The notes beneath the pieces are model-generated. The model worked only from the letters and a program-made list of their open reading frames with translations. It did not search any database and was not told where the DNA came from. Both the position numbers and the translations under genes were made by a program. A stretch of DNA of 64,000 nucleotides from Pegea sp. RAD2-039 (Eukaryota; Chordata; Thaliacea; Salpida; Salpidae), in contig JAQGEQ010000124.1 of NCBI GenBank assembly GCA_034620365.1, positions 372,001 to 436,000 of the forward strand. The letters are read 5' to 3'. Below, one piece after another: positions 7,455 through 64,000 of this stretch. The stretch's first letter is position 1, and every line of letters starts with the position of its first letter.

Positions 7455-10400
7455 TTATCCAGTAGACTGCCAAACAACACACATCTTATTTTTGTCTCCA
7501 GTCACAAGTTTTCCACATTTCCAATTACAGTTAATAACAGGATCACTAAAAAATAGAAAAATTTTAAATGAAGTAGAAAAAAATTATTTTCTGCTAAAAA
7601 ATTAGTTAAGTTTGAAATACTAGACAAATAGTGAAGTTGAATTGATTCACTTTTAAGAACTAGCAAAATAACTTCAAAAAAAAGAAATATTAGAAACAGA
7701 AACCATATTTTGATCTTAAAGAGATGGAAGATATCAAAACAAACAGATGTAACTCTGATACAAGTTGTTAGAGAGTTTGAAGATAAGAATAATTAGAAGA
7801 AGAAATCATATTTTGATCTTGATGAGATGGAAGATATCAAAACAAACAGATGTAACTCTGATACAAGTGGTTAGAAAGTTTGAAGATCAGAAGAATTAGA
7901 AGAAGAAATCATATTTTGATCTTGATGAGATGGAAGATATCAAAACAAACTGATGAAACTCTGATACAAGTGGTTAGAAAGTTTGAATATCAGAATAATT
8001 AGAAGAAGAAATCATATTTTGATCTTGATGAGATGGAAGATATCAAAACAAACAGATGTAACTCTGATACAAGTGGTTAGAAAGTTTGAAGATCAGAAGA
8101 ATTAGAAGAAGAAATCATAATTTTATCTTAAAGAGATGGAAGATATCAAAACAAACTGATGTAACTCTGATACAAGTGGTTAGAGAAATTGAACACCAGA
8201 ATAATTAGAAGATGAAATTGCATTTTGATCTTATTATTGACTTGGTATTGATGGTCGAAGAGTTTTTACAAATCAAGCTGTTATCACGTGAGAACTCATT
8301 CACAAAATTTACAAACCTGTGAAGATACTGAAGTGAAACAAGTTGTTCTGTTTGTACATCCCATGTAAACACACCACCATCAAGTGATCCAACAGCTACA
8401 TATTGACCATCAGGTGAAAAACAACATCTAGTTTGATCAGTAGATACTTTGAAGCTATCATGACTAAAAAACATCAAACTTAAATGGCTAAAATCGAAAA
8501 TGGCCCAGTTACAAACCAAAACACTTTTTTGACGTTCGATTTTCTTAAATCGACCAACTCTAGAGTATGGTCCTTGGTACAACAGACTAATGACTTCATA
8601 TCGTTAGGCATATCTAATGACGTCACTCGGCCACCGACAGAGATCTCATTTATAATTCCATGATTTGATCTGAATAAAACCTCGTCAAATAATCAGTCAA
8701 CAAAAACCTCCACAAACCTTGTGTCCCAAACTCGAATCTTTTTATCAAAATGACCGCTGACCACACAGTCAGCAAAATCGGCGCTGATGACGTCATTACA
8801 TGAAGAGCCTGCCATCAAAGTTCGTTGACATGCTCCTGACCTTGAATCCCAAATCTTAAAAGATATGACGTCATTAGAAGGTGCATGACGTCACTATAAT
8901 CAAGATGACGTAATCAGTAATCACCTTGACAGTTCGGTCGTGACTTCCAGTTGCAATCCTATTGGACGATCCAAGAAAACGACAAGAAAGAACTTTTCCT
9001 CCGTGCCCCGTTAAAGTTAGCTGCAAAAATTAGATGAAGATGAAAATCAGGTCAGAGATGAAGATCAGGTCAGGGATGAAGATCAAGTGTTCGGGGATGA
9101 AGATCAGGTGTTCAGGGATGAAGATCAGGTGTTCGGAGATGAAGATCAGGTCAGAGATGAAGATCAGGTGTTCAGGGATGAAGATCAAGTGTTCAGGGAT
9201 GAAAATCAGGTTAGGGATGAAGATCAGGTGTTCAGGGATGAAGATCAGGTGTTTAGGGATGAAGATCAGGTGTTCGGAGATGAAGATCAGGTGTTCGGAG
9301 ATGAAGATTAGGTGTTTGGAGATGAAGATCAGGTGTTTGGAGATGAAGATCAGGTGTTCGGGGATGAAGATCAGGTGTTCGGGGATGAAGATCAGGTGTT
9401 TAGGGATGAAGATCAGGTGTTCGGAGATGAGGATCAGGTCAGGGATGAAGATCAGGTGTTTGGAGATGAAGATCAGGTGTTCGGAGATGAGGATCAGGTC
9501 AGAGATGAAGATCAGGTGTTTGGAGATGAAGATCAGGTGTTTGGAGATGAAGATCAGGTGTTCGGGGATGAAGATCAGGTGTTCGGGGATGAAGATCAGG
9601 TGTTTAGGGATGAAGATCAGGTGTTCGGAGATGAGGATCAGGTCAGGGATGAAGATCAGGTGTTTGGAGATGAAGATCAGGTGTTCGGAGATGAGGATCA
9701 GGTCAGAGATGAAGATCAGGTGTTTGGAGATGAAGATCAGGTGTTTGGAGATGAAGATCAGGTGTTCGGGGATGAAGATCAGGTGTTCGGGGATGAAGAT
9801 CAGGTGTTTAGGGATGAAGATCAGGTGTTCGGAGATGAGGATCAGGTCAGGGATGAAGATCAGGTGTTTGGAGATGAAGATCAGGTGTTCGGAGATGAGG
9901 ATCAGGTCAGAGATGAAGATCAGGTGTTTGGAGATGAAGATCAGGTGTTTGGAGATGAAGATCAGGTGTTCGGGGATGAAGATCAGGTGTTCGGGGATGA
10001 AGATCAGGTGTTTAGGATCAGGTGTTCGAGATGAGGATCAGGTCAGAGATGAAGATCAGGTGTTCGGAGATGAAGATCAGGTGTTCGGAGATGAGGATCA
10101 GGTGTTCGGAGATGAGGATCAGGTCAGAGATGAAGATCAGGTGTTTGGAGATGAAGATCAGGTGTTCGGAGATGAAGATCAGGTGTTCGGGGATGAAGAT
10201 CAGGTGTTCGGAGATGAAGATCAGGTATTTGGAGATGAGGATCAGGTGTTCGGAGATGAGGATCAGGTCAGAGATGAAGATCAGGTGTTCGGAGATGAAG
10301 ATCAGGTGTTCGGAGATGAAGATCAGGTGTTCGGAGATGAGGATCAGGTCAGAGATGAAGATCAGGTGTTCGGGGATGAAGATCAGGTGTTCGGGGATGA

Positions 10401-62669: not shown

Positions 62670-64000
62670 TGATGACGTCATTTGGTTTTATTTATTTTTT
62701 AGGAAAATGCTTCGAATAAATTATTTTTATGTTAATTTGTTTTGCTAGATTACAAATTTGAACAAAATTAAGGTTTCATGATTCTAGGCGAAGATTTTTT
62801 ACAAGTTTAGGTGCTTAATTGTCCCCTAAGTGCTGAGATTTAGGTTTTTAGATGGGATCTACAAGAACCTCAGCAAAATATTTAGTTTAAACTTAAATAT
62901 GCTTGACGTCAAAAAGCTATATGATGTCATCAACAACAGACTACTTCAACATTTCAACAAATTGCATTTCTCACGTGACTAACTAATAATCAAATCAGAA
63001 TATCAAAGAAAATCATGATGACGTCATCAGCACTCGATATTTAGTCTCTTAGTGGGTTTTACGCTCTGATAGCATAGATATAAATTTGGCCAACGAACTA
63101 AACGTTAAAAGTGATGGAAATTATTGTAAATTGCTTAAAAAAAACTTCTTCAAAATCGGCAAACCACAAAAATAAATTAATGAAAAATTGAAGTTAAAAA
63201 TCAAAAACTAATCTAACAAATAATTTAAAAAAATTCACAATAAATTGTTACAAATAATAGGTTTTAAGTAAACTTGTTTTAATAAAACCAACTGTGGTGA
63301 TATAAGTATACTGTATTACACATCAATTCCAAATATTCATTTATAAAAAATCAGCCAACAAAAAGAAAAGAGAAAAATCATTTCGATTTTGCAACCCACA
63401 AATATAAGATTAAATGGGTTTAATAAATACCAAGGTTTGTTGGTTAATATTTGAAACACTATTAAAAGTTTAGAATAACTTCTTATTTTGGAGGTTGAAC
63501 AAGTTTCAACTAAAAATCCAATAAATTTGATGTCTTGAGAACATAGCTTGCTTTGTGATAAAGAAATATTAATATTTGGTTACATCATAAAAATTAATTA
63601 ACAATGAAGAATTAAAAAATCACATACTAGTCAAAATGTTATTCAAGTTTTGCTTGATTTCATTATTTTAATAAAGAATAATGAGTTAATGAAAATATTA
63701 ATCAAATTCAGAAGATAATGATATTACGTTTCTATTAATTCTAATTCTTGTTTAGAAAATAAAGATAACAACAATTCTAGTAACTTTGGATTATGTAATA
63801 AAGATATTTGAAAAGTTTTATCTCTAGTCTTAGTAGATAGTAGATGGTTGCAGTTTTATTGGTTTTCTGATTGAAATCTTTTAGTATTTTTGATCTTTAT
63901 AGAAAGTAACCTTAAAACACATTGTTATTGTGTAACTTCAAAACTTCGTTTATCGTTTAAATCAAACTTTAGCGTTTACTTTAAAAATTCAACAATTGAA
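62670..64000. other. Downstream AT-rich region
   Basis: No gene is supported to the end of the window. The right copy of the ~190-bp CRE-containing segment lies at 62905-63090. Beyond it the sequence is AT-rich without repeats or RNA genes that I recognise. Confidence 0.5.
62905..63090 (+). repeat. ~190-bp CRE-containing segment, right copy
   Basis: Blocks TTGACGTCA, GATGTCATCAACAAC, AAAATCATGATGACGTCATC and TTAGTGGGTTTTACGCTCTG correspond in order and spacing to 59686-59880. Confidence 0.8.

Follow-up and report, generated by a model that had tools for sequence, protein, structure and literature searches.

Short binding words in DNA are usually sparse, degenerate and kept out of exons. We deal here with an exact palindromic octamer, TGACGTCA, in a 64-kb stretch of the genome of the salp Pegea sp. 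RAD2-039 (contig C107, JAQGEQ010000124.1, positions 372001-436000; hereafter the window), and in the whole assembly of 105.74 Mb and 387 contigs. Gene-body signatures of another kind are known from Caenorhabditis elegans, where periodic An/Tn clusters are thought to guard expression from silencing; these are long-range AT periodicities in introns, whereas TGACGTCA is short and exact and is found in exons too. Vertebrate CpG islands have an observed/expected CpG ratio (CpG o/e) near or above 1 amid CpG-depleted DNA, and the gene-bearing stretches studied here are likewise high in CpG o/e, but at a GC content of only about 0.3-0.35 and over whole gene bodies rather than promoters.

Three other systems are compared here with the word. 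The octamer itself is the textbook cAMP response element (CRE), and as for the CRE the variant TGATGTCA is tolerated here and a CREB-like protein is encoded (PMC1796609). Mammalian CREs gather just upstream of start sites, and the canonical CREs of Ciona are described as having no positional bias (PMC1796609); here, by contrast, there are tens of thousands of copies in 106 Mb, in exons and tiny introns, arranged in domains. The cyanobacterial highly iterated palindrome (HIP) HIP1 is, like TGACGTCA, a single palindromic octamer, exact and far more frequent than expected over much of the genome (PMC4390886), and the occurrence of sites in both coding and non-coding DNA is a further HIP-type feature. 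HIP1 is, however, bacterial and tied to orphan DNA methyltransferases for internal sequences, with no CpG compartment (PMC4390886), whereas the word here is a known transcription-factor site and the methyltransferases found here are DNMT1-like with a BAH domain. The loop-anchor motif of the ctenophore proteins CTEP1 and CTEP2 is, as here, a lineage-specific, abundant word with thousands of sites; these proteins bind unmethylated copies of it at chromatin loops, but they are C2H2 zinc-finger readers and their word is GC-rich and lies at promoters and enhancers, while ours is a bZIP word and also exonic (PMC12221973). The CTEP example shows that a lineage-specific, methylation-sensitive word with a reader of its own is possible in animals. 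Our literature search, which left subscription journals and preprints largely outside its coverage, returned no report of such an animal palindrome, and ATGACGTCAT, an extended form considered below, was not found in the text of PMC4362205. The density of the octamer, its exonic use and its link with a CpG compartment were thus found undescribed in the literature searched, and we rate the finding as lying between CRE regulation and highly iterated palindromes.

Abundance in the window and in the genome

The window holds 83 exact copies of TGACGTCA, against a mean of 0.54 (largest 3) in 100 dinucleotide shuffles and an expectation of 0.71 under an order-2 Markov model; an order-3 model expects 8.3, so that the excess is still 10-fold, and higher orders absorb the word itself. 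An original prediction made on this DNA had put the count at about 80 with fewer than one expected, and the enrichment at about a hundredfold or more; both estimates hold, the second with the order-3 model giving only the lower figure. Among all 256 eight-base palindromes counted in the window, only TGACGTCA shows an excess of such size. The sites lie in six blocks of 9, 30, 11, 9, 7 and 17, covering 25.3 kb together, and the six stretches that the prediction had named as empty are so.

The enrichment is not limited to the window, in agreement with the genome-wide excess that had been anticipated: the assembly contains 27,792 copies (mean 263 per Mb) as opposed to 969 of the reversed word and 695 of TGTCGACA, a CpG-centred palindrome of identical composition, which makes TGACGTCA 40 times commoner than the latter. 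TGATGACGTCATCA occurs 1,972 times and its reversed control not once, and for TGATGTCA the two strands together give 11,070 copies, as against 2,673 of its reversed control. Base composition as the cause of the excess is ruled out by the TGTCGACA count and within bins of equal GC. At 1,297 sites per Mb the window is about five times as dense as the genome mean. Eighteen loci picked by position (L004-L014 and L016-L022, 174,324 bases with both window flanks included, L015 with its 295 bases excluded) hold 46 sites where 0.83 are expected, which at 264 per Mb is close to the genome mean; seven of them have none, and L016 alone has 18 of the 46, in part as a local array. Three loci picked for visible sites (L001-L003) are excluded from this count and pooled in the analyses of flank consensus, flank similarity, near-misses, CpG correlation, word density and local-model excess. 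A search of the assembly for a second copy or haplotype of window positions 59.6-63.1 kb found none.

Form of the word, its flanks and its near-misses

Over 167 sites (window and L001-L022) the word extends to a consensus RTGACGTCAY with TGA/TCA wings, and information reaches three bases to each side: reading upstream from the octamer, A or G comes first (0.67 and 0.24), followed by G (0.47) and T (0.57). A purine before and a pyrimidine after the octamer is the flank preference of bZIP proteins. The 10-bp consensus fits 72 of the 83 window sites and ATGACGTCAT fits 36, but the 14-bp palindrome, to which many sites had been said to extend, fits only seven, so that this claim was overstated.

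Near-misses were counted in one-kb windows after masking seven large arrays of the research window and dropping windows with fewer than 300 bases left. The 69 CpG-rich windows contain 133 intact sites where 1.6 are expected (112 of them with R before and Y after), and 54 single-mismatch forms against 29.8 expected, an excess of 0.18 per intact site. This excess consists mainly of TGATGTCA (17 vs 4.5), a functional low-affinity CRE, and TTACGTCA (13 vs 3.6), which is among the listed CRE variants (PMC1796609). The other 195 windows have 67 near-misses against 33.2 expected with 34 intact sites, a ratio of 0.99; TGAAGTCA, which belongs to the 109-bp tandem repeats described below, accounts for 30 of the 67, but the ratio remains about 0.4 when it is left out, so that the few sites in CpG-poorer DNA look more decayed. 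The AP-1 word TGAGTCA (7 bp) stands at 0.7-0.8 of expectation and is not enriched. Recognition by a bZIP dimer would fit the consensus, the tolerated variants and this lack of AP-1 enrichment. Two further words are enriched in the CpG-rich sample windows, TCACGTGA 8-fold and GTTGCTA, which we take to be RFX X-box-like, 5-fold; both are far fewer than TGACGTCA.

It could be that the word is carried by a dispersed mobile or tandem repeat, as the original prediction had suggested for a dispersed palindromic repeat. A few local arrays do carry it: six sites lie exactly 32 bp apart at L016:8145-8312, and 3 of the 83 window sites fall inside the 13 larger arrays that were checked. However, the flanks of the 167 sites resemble one another no more than random positions do (mean best identity 0.301 vs 0.328, with 16 of 13,861 pairs reaching 65%), single-mismatch forms are few, and exonic sites are in frame. 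Because of the unrelated flanks and the few near-misses a dispersed repeat is ruled out as the carrier, and a repeat origin of any kind is barely credible.

The main rival of the idea, favoured below, that the sites form a platform for a bZIP protein is a non-adaptive spread, close to the biased repair that the original prediction had listed among its options, in which a bias of repair, mismatch correction or gene conversion makes and fixes the word, the sites being functionless and following the regions where the process is active. Such a model has been proposed for HIPs in cyanobacteria (PMC4390886), and an exact word with few near-misses speaks in its favour, but the flank consensus and the tolerated variants match bZIP preference and not a simple mismatch ratchet. 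We regard such a spread as rather doubtful, and further evidence on it is given in the following sections.

Relation to CpG-rich territory

In 268 one-kb windows with the word masked, site number is correlated with CpG o/e (Spearman 0.46), as compared with 0.31 for GC content and -0.19 for GpC o/e. At a GC content of 0.32-0.36 there are 0.29, 0.88 and 3.60 sites per kb where CpG o/e is below 0.6, between 0.6 and 0.9, and above (14, 17 and 10 windows). Overall, density is about 1,940 per Mb at a CpG o/e of at least 0.8 and 115 below 0.5, and mean CpG o/e is 1.09 in windows with at least four sites and 0.57 in those with none. Windows with at least two sites are richer in each of the 16 NCGN contexts than windows without any, in ACGG, CCGG and TCGG by less than one tenth. 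A greater supply of CpG alone predicts more sites, and the counts were set against a local model of the same DNA, fitted after masking the word. Over this model the excess is 64-fold below a CpG o/e of 0.5 (9 sites in 78 kb), 62-fold at 0.5-0.8 (31 sites) and about 180-fold above (128 sites); thus TGACGTCA is over-represented everywhere, in CpG-rich DNA about three times as strongly as elsewhere.

From the strong link of density with CpG o/e one could assume that the word was once common everywhere and passively survived only where its CpG is unmethylated and hence not deaminated. The deaminated form is indeed relatively commoner in CpG-poor DNA, its excess per intact site being 0.53, 0.25 and 0.09 at low, middle and high CpG, so that the few CpG-poor sites appear more decayed. 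In absolute terms, however, TGATGTCA is rarer there (102 per Mb, as against 227 in CpG-rich DNA), far too scarce to explain why intact sites differ 17-fold in density, which rules out deamination loss as the main cause of the scarcity. Passive survival would also leave the excess in CpG-rich DNA wholly unexplained, and is highly improbable.

Genes were also picked by family. Among nine AAA and kinase genes, a proteasome ATPase gene (L034, CpG o/e 1.15) has four sites and an S6K-like gene (L039, 0.61) has one, and the remaining seven (0.25 to 0.97) have none. The original prediction held the sites to be confined to gene-rich blocks and named an excess centred on genes as the support to be looked for. 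The six blocks stand, and density is highest in CpG-rich gene-bearing DNA, but a fucosyltransferase frame (33983-34738) sits in a site-free stretch of the window, many genes elsewhere are site-free, and it is CpG-rich territory that the pattern follows, not genes in themselves. The first 50 14-mers listed on contig C1 are clustered over 100-300 kb (mean 1.24 and variance 4.7 per 100 kb). From these clusters and the site-free genes, the word seems to follow domains more than single genes. Clustering at the scale of domains, together with the absence of a common function among site-bearing genes, would also suit a biased spread.

Sites in coding exons and introns

By hand annotation, 26 of the 83 window sites are in coding exons and 20 in introns, 37 being unclassified. 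Exon borders were drawn by hand with human homologues as a guide. For fourteen of the 26 exonic sites the frame has a match to Pfam or to a homologue (MEST-like four, TIMMDC1-like four, kinase five, CLUAP1 one), and the other 12 rest on hand reading, four of them on an open frame alone. The word is read as NTG-ACG-TCA at 16 exonic sites and as NNT-GAC-GTC-A at 10, the third phase containing a stop; of the 16 NTG codons only one encodes leucine. The DNA consensus is kept within exons, with R before the octamer in 24 of 26 sites and Y after it in 25.

In 2,000 synonymous-codon shuffles of three coding sequences (2.8 kb, 13 sites), which are long frames of a motif-rich window and unrepresentative of all genes, the observed 4, 4 and 5 sites compare with means of 0.56, 0.26 and 0.28; the shuffle maximum was 3, and the observed counts were reached in none. 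Protein repeats or codon usage as the source of exonic sites are thereby ruled out for these three sequences. Exonic sites that go against codon preference are a further point in favour of a biased spread. The word may have bent the choice of amino acids as well, to judge from two alignments: two motif-encoded stretches of the MEST-like protein are insertions missing in the other 12 aligned proteins, a 91% relative excepted, and the kinase has LHDVIES where Ciona and Clavelina show D-I. In close relatives the residue is the same at 26 of 26 codons fully inside the word, compared with 126 of 142 in the six-residue flanks and 864 of 939 overall; this agrees with conservation, short of proof.

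The genes and site-bearing features of the window are as follows.
8618..13568: block 1, nine sites (8618, 8788, 8866, 8886, 12171, 12224, 12435, 13451, 13561), ATG16L1-like WD40 gene on the minus strand, from open frames and a WD40 match just under the cut-off
19091..27108: block 2, 30 sites, plus-strand genes for Orai, a TSSK6-like kinase and a Stum/Spec3-like protein, with Orai-1, Spec3 and kinase matches
20775..20823, plus strand: Orai intron read from the sequence, sites 20783 and 20801, left end uncertain by a few bases
23575..24354, plus strand: coding part of the TSSK6-like kinase exon, five sites (24053, 24126, 24185, 24212, 24305)
36401..42566: block 3, 11 sites, NSF-like gene on the minus strand with AAA matches, its introns holding four (38224, 41206, 42201, 42559)
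38202..38250, minus strand: NSF-like intron of 49 bp, site 38224 and a TGATGTCA variant
42183..42233, minus strand: NSF-like intron of 51 bp, site 42201 and a TGATGACATCATCA variant
42540..42586, minus strand: NSF-like intron of 47 bp, site 42559
47277..48665: block 4, nine sites, CLUAP1 on the minus strand, with Cluap1 matches and borders by hand
47705..47756, minus strand: CLUAP1 intron of 52 bp, sites 47713 and 47727
53720..55185: block 5, seven sites, bHLH (Atonal-like) gene on the minus strand
59687..63026: block 6, 17 sites, the MEST-like and the TIMMDC1-like gene with flanking DNA
60518..61534, plus strand: coding sequence of the MEST-like alpha/beta hydrolase, four sites (60598, 60799, 60915, 61228)
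61644..62666, plus strand: TIMMDC1-like coding sequence, four sites (61645, 61793, 62113, 62653), Tim17 match below the cut-off

Hand reading places 8618, 8788 and 12171 of block 1 in exons and five in introns, with 12435 in neither class; in CLUAP1, 47277, 47315, 47595 and 48594 are exonic and five are intronic. Four sites of block 5 (54933, 54984, 55155, 55178) lie in a 169-aa open frame (54858-55364) that has no Pfam match and is taken as a first exon. A sixth site of the kinase gene, 24358, starts directly after the TAA stop codon, site 61645 shares bases with the start codon of the TIMMDC1-like gene, and the other seven sites of block 3, at 36.4-37.0 kb, have no gene assignment. A script matched six of eight pairs of intron ends for seven introns, the ATG16L1-like intron giving no match; the six introns so matched are 47-55 bp long with one or two sites each, the left end of two Orai introns being uncertain by a few bases.

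The MEST-like protein has its closest named relatives in Clavelina lepadiformis (44%) and Ciona intestinalis (41-43%); for the kinase they are in Clavelina, Ciona and Styela, and these homologues point to a tunicate. COX1 gave no match in the assembly. Window proteins also match relatives at 88%, 91% and 98% identity, so that close relatives have already been sequenced. A dispersed family of 109-bp tandem repeats (103 bp in one case) occupies 7689-8232, 19576-20291, 38521-41070 and 43398-43745 of the window, one array lying inside an NSF-like intron, and CpG o/e is 0.00 in the windows at 39-41 kb. Minisatellites of about 21 and 17 bp lie at 9055-10876 and 11214-11776 within the ATG16L1-like gene, with long open frames on both strands.

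The canonical CRE word and flanks, and the CREB-like bZIP that is encoded, would also be in keeping with ordinary gene-by-gene regulation of the cAMP/CREB type with unusually many sites per target. The density is nevertheless 83 sites in 64 kb across functionally unrelated genes, about 26 of them exonic and 20 intronic, and the clustering is at the scale of domains; such regulation is quite unlikely as the explanation. The prediction had set ordinary CREB targets aside because the sites are too dense, but both the 10-bp consensus and the kinds of variant that are tolerated suggest that a bZIP protein reads the word.

bZIP and methyltransferase genes

A CREB-like bZIP, found as one exon only, is encoded at L028 (E 9.2e-20 against CREB1), and a profile search of the genome gave 12 bZIP_1 matches. 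For C5-cytosine methyltransferases there are seven near-complete matches, in intronless frames of about 830-870 aa.
L023, L024, L025 and L026 (contig C57 twice, C249, C32): C5-methyltransferase frames, with further ones on C32 (twice) and C52

Two that were scanned have BAH and methylase domains and are DNMT1-like. Some of the four fetched frames (L023-L026) have retrotransposon-like coding sequence next to them, and the intronless frames may be DNMT1-like genes that retrotransposons have carried or copied. Kinase-domain clusters in single open frames on contigs C75, C265 and C260 suggest repeated local or retrocopy expansion. CpG methylation is likely in this genome, given that C5-methyltransferase genes are present and the majority of windows are CpG-depleted. 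No enzyme known to recognise TGACGTCA was found in a search that covered C5-methyltransferases only, and within that limit the lack of a recognising enzyme counts against a biased spread.

Interpretation

We favour the reading, at a probability of about 0.4, that TGACGTCA is a binding platform for a CREB/ATF-type bZIP protein, kept by selection, which holds CpG-rich gene territory open and unmethylated. Of the options offered by the original prediction, whose interpretation is partly supported overall, this is that of a chromatin signal. A CREB/ATF-type bZIP dimer would recognise the unmethylated word, CpG-rich DNA would correspond to unmethylated DNA, and many redundant occupied sites would shield the surrounding DNA, leaving the territory unmethylated and open, with selection as the keeper of the sites. 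In other animals CREB binding can be inhibited by CpG methylation in the CRE (PMC1796609), and since the word contains such a CpG the system could sustain itself: bound sites would remain unmethylated, and unmethylated sites would remain bound and escape decay.

Several observations weigh against this reading. The enrichment exceeds 60-fold even in CpG-poor DNA and is therefore not restricted to one compartment. Two of the three CpG-rich genes among the nine picked by family (L037 and L041) are site-free, as are eight bZIP and methyltransferase frames (L023-L027 and L030-L032) with a CpG o/e of 0.67-0.87. One would expect a regulatory word to accept more variants and to stay out of exons, and exon use so dense is unlike that of known CREB targets. 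The difference between core and flank residues in close relatives, although in the direction of conservation, is not significant (P = 0.14).

If the bZIP platform is nonetheless what the sites form, one may go further and imagine a chordate mark meaning 'self, keep open', in which a short CpG palindrome pervades gene territory, with codons, introns and some amino acids bent to it, and a bZIP reader of the unmethylated form holds the compartment against methylation and silencing, so that two states of the genome would be coded in its sequence. This extension we consider doubtful. In the coding sequences tested, one exact word present at tens of thousands of copies shapes the choice of codons, and perhaps that of amino acids, and the compartment linked to it is visible from the sequence alone. 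The finding thus opens the question of whether the density of a single transcription-factor word can set the chromatin and methylation state over blocks of genes, and that of whether selection or drive can carry a binding site through a genome.

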